NCBI GenBank assembly: GCA_947503105.1
Contig: CANNCM010000001.1
Coordinates: forward strand, 434,001 to 498,000
Origin: an uncultured Flavobacteriaceae bacterium
Lineage (GTDB): Bacteria > Bacteroidota > Bacteroidia > Flavobacteriales > Flavobacteriaceae
Length of the DNA: 64,000 nt
Reading direction: 5' to 3'
Under the pieces are notes generated by a model. It had not been told where the DNA came from and did not search any database. It saw only the letters and a list, made by a program, of their open reading frames with translations. Shown here piece after piece: positions 3,554 through 8,717 of this stretch. The position numbers and the translations under genes are program-made. Every line of letters begins with the position of its first letter. The stretch's first letter is position 1.

Positions 3554-5098
3554 ATGTCACAAACGGTCAATATCAAAGATGCTCTGAAAGCCCTAAGTAT
3601 TGAGAAAAACAATCCTGGTACTTCAACTGGAAATACTTGGTTTTCATCTCACAACATAATTGCCTCATTTTCACCTGTTGATGGTGGTCAAATAGGGGCC
3701 GTGTCTGAAACAACGCCAGAACAGTATGAACATGTATTGAGTACTGCTACGGAAGCTTTTAAAACTTGGCGAATAATGCCTGCACCGCAACGCGGAGACA
3801 TTGTACGTCAGTTTGGTGACCGCCTACGAGATCTTAAAGAACCGTTAGGGAAATTGGTGTCTTATGAAATGGGAAAAAGTCTTCAAGAAGGATTGGGAGA
3901 GGTTCAAGAAATGATAGATATCTGTGATTTTGCAGTAGGGCTTTCTCGTCAACTTCATGGTCTAACAATGCATTCTGAACGCCCGGGCCACAGAATGTAC
4001 GAGCAATACCATCCGCTTGGTGTGGTAGGTATCATTTCTGCATTTAATTTTCCTGTTGCTGTATGGGCATGGAACACAGCACTTGCTTGGATTTGTGGTG
4101 ATGTATGCGTTTGGAAACCCTCAGAAAAAACGCCTTTGTGTGGGATTGCTTGCCAAAAAATTGCTGCAGAAGTGTTTGCAAAAAACAATTTGCCAGAAGG
4201 TATTTCTTGTTTGATTAATGGCGATTATAAAGTGGGAACACTATTAACCAAAGACACTCGAGTGCCTTTAATTTCTGCAACAGGATCGACAAGAATGGGA
4301 AAAATTGTAGCAAAAACCGTTGGCGAACGCCTAGGAAAATCACTCCTAGAACTAGGAGGTAACAATGCCATTATTGTAACACCAGATGCCGACATAAAAA
4401 TGACAGTTATAGGTGCTGTATTTGGTGCTGTAGGTACTGCTGGACAGCGCTGTACCTCAACGCGAAGATTGATTATTCATGAGTCAATTTATGACAAAGT
4501 AAAAACTGCTGTGGTAGAGGCCTACAAACAGTTGCGTATTGGGAATCCGCTAGATCAAAACAATCATGTGGGGCCTCTGATAGATACTGATGCTGTGAAA
4601 AATTATCAAAATGCACTTGAGGCAGTCGTTGCCGAGGGTGGAAATATCATAGTTGAAGGCGGTGTGCTTCAAGGCGAAGGTTATGAAAGTGGGTGTTATG
4701 TAAAGCCCGCCATTGCAGAGGCAAAAAATAATTTTAATATTGTTCAGCACGAAACTTTTGCACCTGTCCTTTATCTGTTAAAATATTCTGGAACAGTAGA
4801 AAATGCTATTGCTTCACAAAATAATGTAGCACAAGGCCTGTCTTCAGCCATTATGACAAATAATCTTCGAGAAGCCGAATTGTTTTTGTCTCACGCTGGT
4901 AGCGACTGTGGTATTGCAAATGTCAATATTGGAACTTCGGGAGCTGAAATTGGAGGTGCTTTTGGAGGCGAAAAAGAGACTGGTGGCGGTAGAGAATCTG
5001 GAAGTGATGCCTGGAAAATATACATGAGAAGACAAACCAATACGATCAACTACACAACAGACCTTCCCTTGGCTCAGGGAATTAAATTTGATTTATAA
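3554..5098 (+). CDS. Aldehyde dehydrogenase, ALDH7/aminoadipate-semialdehyde dehydrogenase type
   Basis: This 514-residue NAD(P)-dependent aldehyde dehydrogenase oxidises an aldehyde to the acid. The catalytic cysteine is Cys300 in GQRCTSTRR and the general base is Glu266 in LELGGNN; the 34-residue spacing is the family norm. The NFPVAVWAWN and WKPSEKTPL segments form the cofactor pocket, and SATGSTRMGK marks the Rossmann turn. The length and local sequence resemble antiquitin-like ALDH7 enzymes, which act on alpha-aminoadipate semialdehyde in lysine catabolism. Substrate cannot be fixed from sequence alone and no other lysine-degradation gene is adjacent. A strong hairpin terminator follows. 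Confidence 0.93.
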   Translation: MSQTVNIKDALKALSIEKNNPGTSTGNTWFSSHNIIASFSPVDGGQIGAVSETTPEQYEHVLSTATEAFKTWRIMPAPQRGDIVRQFGDRLRDLKEPLGKLVSYEMGKSLQEGLGEVQEMIDICDFAVGLSRQLHGLTMHSERPGHRMYEQYHPLGVVGIISAFNFPVAVWAWNTALAWICGDVCVWKPSEKTPLCGIACQKIAAEVFAKNNLPEGISCLINGDYKVGTLLTKDTRVPLISATGSTRMGKIVAKTVGERLGKSLLELGGNNAIIVTPDADIKMTVIGAVFGAVGTAGQRCTSTRRLIIHESIYDKVKTAVVEAYKQLRIGNPLDQNNHVGPLIDTDAVKNYQNALEAVVAEGGNIIVEGGVLQGEGYESGCYVKPAIAEAKNNFNIVQHETFAPVLYLLKYSGTVENAIASQNNVAQGLSSAIMTNNLREAELFLSHAGSDCGIANVNIGTSGAEIGGAFGGEKETGGGRESGSDAWKIYMRRQTNTINYTTDLPLAQGIKFDL

Positions 5099-5123: not shown

Positions 5124-5154
5124 AAAAAAGTCACATAAAAATGTGACTTTTTTT
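5124..5154 (+). terminator. Rho-independent terminator after the aldehyde dehydrogenase gene
   Basis: The inverted repeat GTCACAT / ATGTGAC encloses an AAAA loop. It is preceded by an A run and followed by a run of eight or more T residues. The A and T runs extend the stem, so the structure could also work in the reverse direction. It lies 26 bp after the dehydrogenase stop. Confidence 0.85.
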
Positions 5155-5223: not shown

Positions 5224-6129
5224 ATGAGTAAAAAAACAACCTACTTGTTAGGGATTTTGGCCACCCTAATCATCGGTTTTTTTCTGCACTGGTATTTTTG
5301 CTGCAATAAAAACTGTACAAAAACATCAATTGCAAAAGAGACCTCACAAGAAAAAGCCGCCACAATGTTTCCTTTTACATTTGATGACGGTGATATCGCC
5401 ATAAGCAGCAATGACAATTTTAATTTCATGTCATCGGACCATGCTATAGTGCAACCTTTATCTGAAGATTTGTTGTCTTGTATTAAGGAGATGATTACAC
5501 ATCTTAAAAATAATAAAGACAAAAAGCTAAACATCTCCGGCTATTTTAAAGAGGGTGAGAATAATCTATCTCATTTTGAAAACTTAGGGGTGGCTAGAGC
5601 AAAAGCCATTAAACAATTCTTAATAGAACATGGGTTATCTGCTGATCAAGTTTCAGCTTTTGGTAAAAAAGACAATTCTCTAACTCCAAATCAAAGTGGT
5701 ATTCTTAGAGGGCCTTATGCTTTTACTGTAGAGAGCTTTGAAGGGATTGGTGGTCGTTCTAAAAGAATAAGTGCAATGAAAAACGACCTTATGAAAGACC
5801 CGGTACTCGTCCGCTTTTTACCTGCAAAAGCAACTACTTTCTTATACAAAGAAGAGAAAAACAAACTAAAAGCGTTAGCCAATTATCTTAATGCCTCCGA
5901 TAATGTAAGTTGCACTATTGTAGGGCATACGGATAATGTTAAGTCTGAAGAAAGCAATTTGAGGCTTGGCAAAAAAAGAGCTGAATTTACAAAAAGAAAA
6001 TTGTTAGAATATAGCGTTGACGCAAACAAAATCAACACAACCTCTAAAGGCGAAACTGCGCCTATTGCTACAAACAAGACTGAAAGAGGGAAAGCCCTAA
6101 ATAGAAGAACAGAAGTAATAATTAATTAA
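5224..6129 (+). CDS. Membrane-anchored protein with two tandem OmpA-like domains
   Basis: The 301-residue protein starts with a short positive segment and a single hydrophobic helix (about residues 8-25) ending in a cysteine-containing stretch (CCNKNC). No beta-barrel follows. The C-terminal domain (about 195-301) is a clear OmpA peptidoglycan-binding fold with GHTDN, a downstream RLGKKRA helix and a final RRTEVII strand. The region from about residue 78 to 160 has the same helix-strand pattern (KLNISGYF, GVARAKAIKQFL, VSAFG) and looks like a degenerate first copy. The protein probably links the cell envelope to peptidoglycan. It is followed closely by a small membrane-anchored helix-hairpin-helix protein, probably in the same operon. 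Confidence 0.83.
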   Translation: MSKKTTYLLGILATLIIGFFLHWYFCCNKNCTKTSIAKETSQEKAATMFPFTFDDGDIAISSNDNFNFMSSDHAIVQPLSEDLLSCIKEMITHLKNNKDKKLNISGYFKEGENNLSHFENLGVARAKAIKQFLIEHGLSADQVSAFGKKDNSLTPNQSGILRGPYAFTVESFEGIGGRSKRISAMKNDLMKDPVLVRFLPAKATTFLYKEEKNKLKALANYLNASDNVSCTIVGHTDNVKSEESNLRLGKKRAEFTKRKLLEYSVDANKINTTSKGETAPIATNKTERGKALNRRTEVIIN

Positions 6130-6143
6130 AAAAACAAAACATT

Positions 6144-6662
6144 ATGAATACATGTATACTAATCCACTTTGGTGTTGGAATTTTATCTGCACTTTTCGGA
6201 TACCTCCTTGGGAGATTATTTGGAAAAGGGCGTTGTCAAAATTGTGATGACTGGAAAGAAAAAATGGTAACTCTTGAAAAAGAATTAAATGCGAATAAAA
6301 AGAAAACCTCCCCACAATACAAACGATCGCTTGCTTCAACTGTAGCATCTACATACAGTTTTAATGCGAATTTGGCAAAAGGCGTCTTTGGTAAAACCAT
6401 CAAAGAAAATGATCTTACTATTGTTGAAGGTATTGGGCCAAAAATTCAAGAGCTTTTCCATAAGAATAATATCAAAACCTGGAAATCATTATCAAATTGT
6501 AGTGTTCAAAAATGCCAATCAATCCTAAATAATGCGGGTGAGGCCTATAGAATTCATAATCCTGGAACCTGGCCAAAACAAGCCAGAATGGCCTATGAAG
6601 GAAAATGGGAGAAACTTCTCAAATGGCAAGATGAATTAGACGGTGGAATTGATAAGTTATAA
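6144..6662 (+). CDS. Membrane-anchored helix-hairpin-helix (HhH) domain protein
   Basis: The 172-residue product has an N-terminal transmembrane helix (about residues 5-26, ending with GRLFGKG), a short charged linker and a C-terminal region containing VEGIGPKIQELF, a typical helix-hairpin-helix element of the kind found in DNA-binding proteins and in small domains annotated as predicted 5' DNA nuclease or DUF4332-like. I see no nuclease active site. The ATG lies 14 bp after the OmpA-like gene. A domain that usually binds DNA or protein attached to a membrane anchor is odd; the topology is predicted to put it in the cytoplasm or periplasm depending on helix orientation, which I cannot determine. 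Function unknown. Confidence 0.75.
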   Translation: MNTCILIHFGVGILSALFGYLLGRLFGKGRCQNCDDWKEKMVTLEKELNANKKKTSPQYKRSLASTVASTYSFNANLAKGVFGKTIKENDLTIVEGIGPKIQELFHKNNIKTWKSLSNCSVQKCQSILNNAGEAYRIHNPGTWPKQARMAYEGKWEKLLKWQDELDGGIDKL

Positions 6663-6670
6663 TACGTTAA

Positions 6671-6692
6671 AAACCCTGCAAATGCAGGGTTT
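6671..6692. terminator. Hairpin terminator shared by two convergent genes
   Basis: The arms AAACCCTGCA and TGCAGGGTTT form a near-perfect stem with a very small loop. It sits between the HhH gene (+) and the AlbA_2 gene (-) and reaches the first two bases of the latter's stop codon. There are A and T runs on the flanks but no long T tract, so efficiency is uncertain. Confidence 0.65.
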
Positions 6693-7830
6693 AATTATAC
6701 TTCACCTTGCGTAAAATACGCATACTCTCTTTATATAAATTATAAATATCCTCACTATGTTTGGCTAATAAAGGCTTAGAGAGTTCAAGCTGTTTTAATG
6801 CTTGATCAAAACCATTGAAATGACAAATTAAATATGTTATTGGAAGATTTTTTAAATCTTCTTGCTCATATTTTTCTAACGCTTGTTGTGTCCTTAATTT
6901 TTCCAATAAAGCATTGTTGATATTAAAAATATGGTGAAGATTTTTTTTGTCATAAACTGGGGGCTGAAACAAAAGTTTTGTCTCAATATTGTACTGAGCA
7001 TTTTCAGAAAAAGTAATGCTTGTTTCTTCTAACTTTAAATATTTATTTTGACCATTTAATCCAAGATTAACATATTCAATAATTTTAAAACTATCTTTAT
7101 CATAACGTATTTCAACCTCATCTAATGTAGAATAAAAAAGGCGAACTTGTTCGTTAATAAGGGCAATATCGACCCTCGAATAAAAGGTTTGATTTTTAAC
7201 GACTTTCTTTTGGCCAGACCAGCAGATTACAAAATATTCTTTAAAAACACGATACGTTGGGCTGTAATCTTTTCTGTTTTTCATAAAATCAAAAACGCCG
7301 TCTAAAGTGTACTGTATGTTGTTTTGAGCATGCTGCTCAATGGCCTCAACGATTTTCGAATTGGTGTCGTTAAGCTTCAAATCGAATACTTTTGGCATGC
7401 TCATGCTGCCATCTCTAAAAAATACCGAACCGCCATAATACTTCCAAATATTCTTTCGTAACGCGGTAATGGTATTTGTTGTTTTTGATCTAATTGTCAC
7501 CAACCCCACTACCTTATCTTCTGAAAGGTGCGGAAAAGGAATGTTTTCATATTGAATAATAGGAGGATGTTCTAGGTAAGCATTAATTAAATTTTGAATT
7601 TTACTGTCATCAAAAAAATCTACTCCAACAATGTCATTTGAAGGGTCGTCAACTCCAATGATGATGTAAGAATTATTCTTTGGATTGCTGTTTGAAAGCG
7701 CACAGATATGTTTCAAAAACTTTGCTTTACCCTCTTTTTCTGAAATATTAATTTGACGCTTTTTGTCATAAAAACTGTTCTCGTCGTTATGAGCAAGTAG
7801 GTTTTTTATAAGTAAGCGTTTATTAATCAT
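6691..7830 (-). CDS. AlbA_2 (Schlafen-type) domain protein
   Basis: The 379-residue protein begins MINKRLLIKNLLAHNDE and carries an N-terminal AlbA_2 domain. This is seen in the segments KAKFLKHICALSNSNP and YIIIGVDDPSNDIVGVD, the usual pattern of a core strand-turn with a conserved Gly-Val-Asp. AlbA_2 domains occur in putative transcriptional regulators and in Schlafen-related nucleic acid-binding proteins. The C-terminal two thirds has no feature I recognise. An open frame continues upstream for 55 codons to 7995, but that part lies inside the neighbouring aldo/keto reductase gene and looks like a shadow, so I start at the CAT at 7828-7830. The gene follows the reductase by 11 bp and is probably co-transcribed. 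Confidence 0.75.
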   Translation of the reverse strand: MINKRLLIKNLLAHNDENSFYDKKRQINISEKEGKAKFLKHICALSNSNPKNNSYIIIGVDDPSNDIVGVDFFDDSKIQNLINAYLEHPPIIQYENIPFPHLSEDKVVGLVTIRSKTTNTITALRKNIWKYYGGSVFFRDGSMSMPKVFDLKLNDTNSKIVEAIEQHAQNNIQYTLDGVFDFMKNRKDYSPTYRVFKEYFVICWSGQKKVVKNQTFYSRVDIALINEQVRLFYSTLDEVEIRYDKDSFKIIEYVNLGLNGQNKYLKLEETSITFSENAQYNIETKLLFQPPVYDKKNLHHIFNINNALLEKLRTQQALEKYEQEDLKNLPITYLICHFNGFDQALKQLELSKPLLAKHSEDIYNLYKESMRILRKVKYN

Positions 7831-7841
7831 TATTCTAGAAA

Positions 7842-8717
7842 TTAAGGAACGTTGTGGCCTTGGCTCGCCACAAGGATTTTGAACCAGTCTTCTGTAGATA
7901 GTTCTATGGAAAGCGATTGAAGTGCAGATTGGATTCTCTCTTTTTGGGTAGTGCCAATGATCGGATGTATTTTCGAAGGGTGTTTCAAAATCCATGCCAA
8001 CAACAACTGATCTTCACTTGCACTATATTTTAATGAAAGTTCCGAAAACTCCTTTTTCATTCGCTGTTTTTTTGCCTGATCATCTAAACTAAAATAAGAC
8101 CGAACAGGCCCCCAGGCCATTGGCGTTATTTTATGTTGTAGTATGCTATCCAAAGTTCCATCAAACAAAGCAGAGTGTTGTACAGCAGAAAACTCAATTT
8201 GATTAATGTCCAAAACGCCTTCAGACAGCATTAAGTCCATATGAGAGGAAGAGAAATTAGACACCCCAAAATTTAAGATTTTCCCTTCTTTTTTTAAATC
8301 TTCTGCAGCTCTCATCACTTCCTCTGGATGCATTAGAGGACTAGGTCGGTGAATTAAAAGCGCGTCCAAATACTCGGTTTTGAGATGTTTCAACGAGGCT
8401 TCAGCCGAAGCAATTATGTATGCTTTTGAAGTATCATAGTGGATGATCTCATTAGAGCGATTATCACTTGTGTATTGAATACCACATTTTGAAACAAATT
8501 GGACTTGATCTCTTGGAATTGAACTTTGACTAAAGGCCTTTCCAAAAGCAGCCTCCATAGTGTACCCGCCATAAATATCGGCATGATCAAAAGTGTTAAT
8601 GGCATTTTCATAAAAAAAGGCCAACAAATCAGTCATTTGTTTTGTGCTCATTTGCTTACCCCATTGACCCCAAAACATTGTTCCTGCAACAAGTCTAGAA
8701 TTTAATATTTTTGGCAT
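7842..8717 (-). CDS. Aldo/keto reductase (YdhF-like)
   Basis: The 291-residue enzyme is an NADPH-dependent aldo/keto reductase. The catalytic tetrad is visible as Asp and Tyr in DHADIYGGY, Lys in FVSKCGI and His in LLIHRPSPLM. The cofactor-binding C-terminal part includes PIIGTTQKERI. The overall pattern is closest to the E. coli YdhF group of small-molecule oxidoreductases; the substrate is unknown. I start at 8717 (MPKILNSRLVAG), because the longer frame to 8765 adds a lysine- and phenylalanine-rich leader that does not fit the family. Confidence 0.9.
   Translation of the reverse strand: MPKILNSRLVAGTMFWGQWGKQMSTKQMTDLLAFFYENAINTFDHADIYGGYTMEAAFGKAFSQSSIPRDQVQFVSKCGIQYTSDNRSNEIIHYDTSKAYIIASAEASLKHLKTEYLDALLIHRPSPLMHPEEVMRAAEDLKKEGKILNFGVSNFSSSHMDLMLSEGVLDINQIEFSAVQHSALFDGTLDSILQHKITPMAWGPVRSYFSLDDQAKKQRMKKEFSELSLKYSASEDQLLLAWILKHPSKIHPIIGTTQKERIQSALQSLSIELSTEDWFKILVASQGHNVP

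Follow-up and report, generated by a model that had tools for sequence, protein, structure and literature searches.

A conserved OmpA-like and helix-hairpin-helix gene pair of Flavobacteriaceae that may form a cysteine-coupled inner-membrane unit with a removable peptidoglycan anchor

The window (the whole 64,000-nucleotide stretch that was analyzed, from an uncultured Flavobacteriaceae bacterium) contains a gene for an OmpA-like protein followed closely by one for a small membrane-anchored helix-hairpin-helix (HhH) protein, and the question raised by the locus is what these two proteins do together at the membrane. The first-pass annotation supposed that the HhH domain is there for DNA contact. 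The reading favored here, to which we give about an even chance (roughly 0.5), is that the two genes would encode one cysteine-coupled inner-membrane unit from which the peptidoglycan anchor can be removed and whose tail serves for docking. The locus is laid out as follows.

5124-5153, plus strand: terminator-like hairpin between the aldehyde dehydrogenase gene and the pair, with a 13-pair stem followed by a T run
5224-6129, plus strand: OmpA-like partner gene, an open reading frame of 301 aa at these coordinates
5230-5304, plus strand: predicted partner membrane helix, residues 3-27, the segment retained by partners of 30-96 aa
5374-5736, plus strand: OmpA domain 1, diverged, with invariant Arg125 and invariant Glu112 and Asn114
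5743-6123, plus strand: OmpA domain 2, canonical, with Asp237 and Arg252 15 residues apart
6144-6662, plus strand: membrane-anchored HhH gene, an open reading frame of 172 aa at these coordinates
6153-6224, plus strand: predicted membrane helix of the HhH protein, residues 4-27, beginning at Cys4
6393-6647, plus strand: C-terminal HhH domain, residues 84-168, with GIGPK and a second half H-P-W-P-Q-W-W
6671-6692, plus strand: terminator-like hairpin 3' of the HhH gene

The HhH gene starts 14 nt after the partner stop codon. Because the hairpins at either end flank both genes, the pair looks like one transcription unit. Between positions 4900 and 7000, 8 terminator-like sites were found against 1.2 expected from shuffled sequence; the 9 promoter-like sites around the pair (6.7 expected) were not above chance. 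The aldehyde dehydrogenase gene upstream (3554-5098), which serves as a locus marker across relatives, scored 824.7 against the NCBIfam model for L-piperidine-6-carboxylate dehydrogenase and so passes its cut-off of 730. Downstream, on the minus strand, lies a gene with Schlafen AlbA_2 and DUF5929 domains (6691-7995); genes resembling it by eye are found near the OmpA gene in two other loci (L121 and L122).

The OmpA-like partner matched PF00691 over two stretches with 82.6 bits, above the curated cut-off, and when the protein was cut in two the halves scored 29.0 and 58.5 bits against the Pfam OmpA cut-off of 27.2. In its predicted model, a low-confidence linker separates a single N-terminal helix (residues 3-27) from two alpha/beta domains, and there is no beta barrel of the OmpA porin type. 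The earlier description, two OmpA domains without a barrel, therefore holds. OmpA-type domains bind diaminopimelate through an Asp and an Arg 15 residues apart. In domain 2, Asp237 and Arg252 are invariant in 23/23 aligned sequences and the strict Asp/Arg pattern was found in 41/43; domain 1 keeps Arg125 and lacks the usual Asp spacing, with Glu112, Asn114, and Arg125 shared by all 23 aligned sequences. The same 23 sequences all have Cys at the position of partner Cys26. No lipobox was found at this conserved cysteine, where the preceding residue is Leu in 10 sequences, Phe in 8, Tyr in 4, and Cys in 1, and a Pal-type lipoprotein identity for the partner was rejected on this ground. A lipobox-like string was present at another, unconserved cysteine within the helix in 2 of 45 full partners (L035 and L066).

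In the model of the HhH protein, a helix (residues 4-27) and a helical domain are joined by a weakly predicted linker; the helical domain is confident, with means of 10-residue blocks of 90-98 across residues 71-160. The reading frames and this model agree with the first-pass description of a small protein, 14 bp downstream, with one membrane helix and an HhH domain. Cys4, Gly12, Gly19, and Gly23 of the helix and the GIGPK motif of the HhH domain are each invariant in 24/24 aligned sequences, and the H-P-W-P-Q-W-W second half is conserved. The window protein matched no Pfam family at E ≤ 1; 19 of the 24 aligned members, the window protein not among them, matched HHH_5 (PF14520) at E ≤ 0.1, and HHH_3, which we take to be the model for ComEA, was not among the matches listed. 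Foldseek searches with the model gave no match at E ≤ 0.001. A second look at fold matches gave HhH domains as the best, with Z up to 8.1: Pol theta (Z 8.1 over 66 residues, rmsd 2.6), RadA (Z 6.8), and the NusA C-terminal domain (Z 5.9), where by the tool's own warning a Z below 8 possibly reflects a common arrangement. Two of the HhH proteins collected (L047 and L073) have two tandem HhH domains, and at one locus (L069) two HhH genes follow in a row behind one OmpA gene.

A full-length HhH gene was found in 99 of the 299 family genomes searched (profile E ≤ 1.1e-36) and not, at that threshold, in the other 200; shorter membrane forms that fall short of it (e.g., L049, L056, L058, and L059), likewise with an OmpA gene upstream, were left out of the count. 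Among the 99 genomes, an OmpA-bearing partner adjoined the HhH gene in 74, in each case upstream and on the same strand, a helix-only partner did so in 15, and none was found in 10. The 74 are made up of 68 identified by coordinates, 5 recognized on fetching the sequence (L116-L120), and one (L019, the same as G020) whose partner has one OmpA domain. The OmpA profile count alone (68/99 adjoining, from at most seven candidates scored per genome) is thus an undercount, and it includes damaged or incomplete partners, e.g., one with an internal stop (G072) and one consisting of domain 2 only (G086). Thirty of the remaining 31 loci were fetched and held an OmpA ORF in 5, a helix-only partner in 15, and neither in 10. 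Among the HhH loci fetched first, which were the best-scoring and so biased, an OmpA-like ORF lay upstream on the same strand in 38/38 (37 distinct places, as L003 and L033 are one place; L002 was dropped as a weak, chance-like hit). L061, which repeats L001, was dropped as well. Five OmpA hits lacked an adjacent full HhH hit; a diverged HhH gene was present in three (L123-L125) and none was found in two (L121 and L122). The OmpA partner of L121 (2081-3007, minus strand), beside which no HhH gene was found, has a changed Asp motif in domain 2 and is perhaps decaying. Conservation of the pair in other genomes, which the first-pass annotation had proposed as a check, is borne out by the 74 of 99, and across the genomes searched the counts show that the OmpA-like and HhH genes are a conserved pair and that the pairing is real. 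Of 58 loci (some of the stretches being short), 51 have an aldehyde dehydrogenase gene upstream in the same orientation, and the loci with and without OmpA are therefore the same locus. At class level the HhH domain was detected in 26/295 genomes (E ≤ 1e-5) and at phylum level in 33/296 (E ≤ 1e-8), family members included in both; it is rarer outside the family. No published description of an OmpA-HhH pair was found in the literature searched, which consisted of open PMC papers only.

In the 15 genomes with a helix-only partner, the upstream gene encodes 30-96 aa (the length varies with the choice of start codon), made up of the partner membrane helix and a CxxC motif (present in all 15), followed by at most a short tail. 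The 26 codons up to and including CxxC appear to be protein-coding and under protein-level constraint. Mean identity at codon positions 1, 2, and 3 was 0.69, 0.75, and 0.36, amino acid identity was 0.55 in frame compared to 0.27 and 0.26 in the other frames, and pN/pS was 0.34, with pS near saturation (0.81); in the 78 nt past CxxC, ungapped nucleotide identity was 0.27. The profile that detected these partners was derived from full-length ones, and more diverged examples could escape it; a hit at E 0.75 (L103) was left uncounted, and at L110 an ORF begins similarly and has no CxxC after the helix. Two more helix-only partners (L161 and L163) sit in another genus group, and for this reason the OmpA partner probably shrank more than once. 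Across these alignments, the partner helix and its cysteines are shown to persist in the absence of the OmpA domains. The OmpA domains look optional, because 15 of the 99 genomes keep just the helix and CxxC.

The comparison also showed that the HhH cysteine tracks whether a partner is present. Cysteine at the start of the HhH helix was found in 45/45 sequences with a full partner, 15/15 with a helix-only partner, and 1/11 with none found; the exception (L092) retains the cysteine with no partner detected. The cysteine was present in all of ten additional full-partner genomes (L141-L150). Ten later genomes conformed as well (seven with a full and two with a helix-only partner, all with the cysteine, and one with neither partner nor cysteine), although L159 is not independent of L115, being of the same genus group; of L151-L166, four repeats (L152, L153, L162, and L164) and two non-membrane forms (L165 and L166) were dropped. 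Well-supported branches force four independent changes of partner state on the HhH tree and three on the aldehyde dehydrogenase tree, and either best tree has nine. The cysteine follows the partner state in 3-4 of the 4 and in 2 of the 3, respectively, and never goes the opposite way; these events are too few for significance, and the trees, which are poorly resolved (17/68 and 5/48 inner branches starred for HhH and aldehyde dehydrogenase), cannot separate gain from loss.

More distant members follow a related pattern. In 23 distant pairs compared by eye, a partner with CC or CxxC was accompanied by an HhH cysteine ahead of the helix in 12/12, and the other partners (C-x5-C in ten, a single Cys in one) by an HhH protein with none ahead of the helix in 11/11. 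L080 and L123, in which the cysteine lies within the helix, were scored as not ahead, and L083 (start uncertain), L084 (an apparent fusion), and L057 (at a contig end) were left out of the comparison. The distribution would fit a bond between the two proteins in the CC/CxxC lineage and a bond inside the partner in the C-x5-C lineage. It means, too, that a cysteine link between the proteins cannot be general, as other lineages pair the partner with HhH proteins that lack this cysteine.

How the two helices would be oriented was judged from charge. Lys and Arg are commoner after than before the HhH helix in 69/71, and therefore the HhH tail should be cytoplasmic and the HhH cysteine periplasmic. 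The corresponding counts around the partner helix (more before it in 22, equal in 10, and fewer in 12, the window among these; n = 44) are not decisive for the partner topology. OmpA domains work in the periplasm, and the partner cysteines should therefore share a face with the HhH cysteine. In L084, the two membrane helices appear, by eye, to be fused into one chain with a coiled coil and the tail; this would support an antiparallel arrangement. In the proposed unit, the partner helix would run in-to-out and place the OmpA domains in the periplasm, the HhH helix would run out-to-in and place the tail in the cytoplasm, and the two antiparallel helices would make up one inner-membrane unit, with glycines in both that would permit close packing. 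Cys26 of the partner and Cys4 of the HhH protein would meet on the periplasmic face, disulfide-linked or otherwise paired. The OmpA domains would clamp the unit to peptidoglycan as an optional, dispensable add-on, and the HhH tail would be a protein-docking module tethering a cytoplasmic or membrane client to it. We infer the topology, the cysteine bond, the peptidoglycan grip, and the docking, the last by analogy with the attachment of the tail to other large assemblies. A further-reaching form, in which the unit has a general docking tail and the OmpA protein was reduced, on more than one occasion, to a membrane microprotein of ~30-90 residues that still does the essential job, is put forward tentatively, at somewhat less than even odds.

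One count goes against a simple bond: the two cysteines of CxxC and the one of the HhH protein leave one thiol over. In an alternative reading, CxxC and the HhH cysteine would not form a structural bond but act as a periplasmic redox or metal switch whose signal goes to the cytoplasmic tail. The spare thiol left by CxxC in all 15 helix-only partners would agree with such a sensor, as would the missing HhH cysteine in 10 of the 11 sequences without a partner found. The number and spacing of the cysteines differ between lineages, however, and a thiol sensor is considered rather unlikely.

The HhH domain was also found as a C-terminal tail on bL21, uS2, bL27, bL17, and a CBM48-like protein. In L088, ActD and an adjoining NrfD-type protein, read here as ActC, each carry such a tail. 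The L088 locus looks like alternative complex III; a neighboring cytochrome protein there carries an OmpA domain, and the HhH and OmpA domain types meet again. The net charge (K+R minus D+E) of the membrane-form tails averaged -1.1 and ranged from -7 to +5 (70 copies), with +2 in the window. The tails of ribosomal proteins are mostly negative (the exception, L089, has +1), the CBM48-like copy (L045) has +8, and the ActD copy has +6. On the basis of these fusions and the near-neutral charge, a protein-docking tail fits better than a DNA clamp, and the initial view that the HhH domain is there for DNA contact is disfavored.

The same evidence bears on a nucleoid tether, in which the cytoplasmic HhH domain would bind DNA and the OmpA protein would anchor it to the wall. 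The modeled HhH fold, with the DNA-handling Pol theta and RadA among its matches, and the GIGPK motif, invariant in all 24 aligned sequences, would suit that role. Against this, a tail of identical type sits on ribosomal and respiratory proteins, its net charge is about -1 on average and +2 in the window, and the NusA C-terminal domain is matched too, in the range of Z where a common arrangement may suffice. The HhH protein also stays where the OmpA domains are missing (15/99) and where the partner is missing as well (10 more). These observations make a nucleoid tether improbable. In a third alternative, docking would be like-with-like, the membrane HhH protein holding ribosomes that carry the same tail on bL21 or uS2. 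Many relatives show additional matches alongside the membrane form, and 12 of the 20 further or weaker matches fetched were uS2 (5) or bL21 (7) fusions. The window genome, however, gave one profile match at E ≤ 10 (ten candidates scored), a second hit in a single-sequence search was chance-like (E 0.04), its bL21 has no tail, and 14 of the 99 genomes have one match only at E ≤ 1e-10 (at most eleven candidates scored in each). The single match and the tail-less bL21 make docking to ribosomal copies unlikely in the window genome, and homotypic ribosome docking was set aside there, as the HhH domain appears to be single-copy; as a general account it is very improbable. The bL21 of the window genome (L060, 1282-1803, minus strand), without the HhH tail seen in relatives, ends in a different short segment that by eye resembles a Rho_N/SAP motif. 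Finally, a ComEA-like DNA uptake protein with a periplasmic HhH domain would share the membrane anchor and recalls the HhH protein required for transformation in Riemerella (PMC8459023), which need not be related to the window protein, but the charge pattern that points to a cytoplasmic tail (69/71) and the family match to HHH_5, with HHH_3 not among the matches listed, leave it highly improbable.

The pair is of interest in three respects. It opens to experiment a type of domain whose function has been called obscure, as the tail is here anchored in the membrane and its partner can be named. It points to a natural loss of a peptidoglycan anchor down to a membrane microprotein of a kind that ordinary gene calling may miss. 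And it points to a cysteine that is retained or lost together with its partner.

Three known systems share parts of this arrangement. The MotB type is an OmpA-like peptidoglycan-binding protein with one membrane helix, and MotB domains were among the fold matches of the partner. Like that type, the partner has a single N-terminal helix and an OmpA domain with the Asp/Arg pair; unlike it, the partner has two OmpA domains, the first diverged, its gene neighbor encodes an HhH protein, and the OmpA part is missing in some relatives. The HHH_5-tailed bL21, uS2, bL27, and bL17 of Bacteroidota have the same C-terminal domain as the window HhH protein, but they are soluble carriers without a membrane anchor. 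The third is protein-O of the Dinoroseobacter shibae RC-LH1 complex, a photosynthetic core complex, which has, besides a flexible linker and a related tail, two membrane helices joined by a disulfide; its authors call the function of such C-terminal domains obscure (PMC12079452). The A1 profile of the HhH tail matched the C-terminal domain of protein-O (8yy9_O) at E 0.0016, as a remote relative; 8yy9_O was not among the fold matches listed for the HhH model, which is uninformative since its tail is untraced in the map. The diverged HhH proteins beside an OmpA gene in L123, L124, and L125 have a tail that by eye resembles the protein-O type and not that of the window. Both systems combine a membrane helix, a linker (long and flexible in protein-O), and a C-terminal HhH-related tail. 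They differ in that the helices are placed on two genes here and on one chain in protein-O, which is alphaproteobacterial and without an OmpA domain. The protein-O disulfide, moreover, is described on the cytoplasmic side (PMC12079452), whereas the one proposed for the window pair would be periplasmic.
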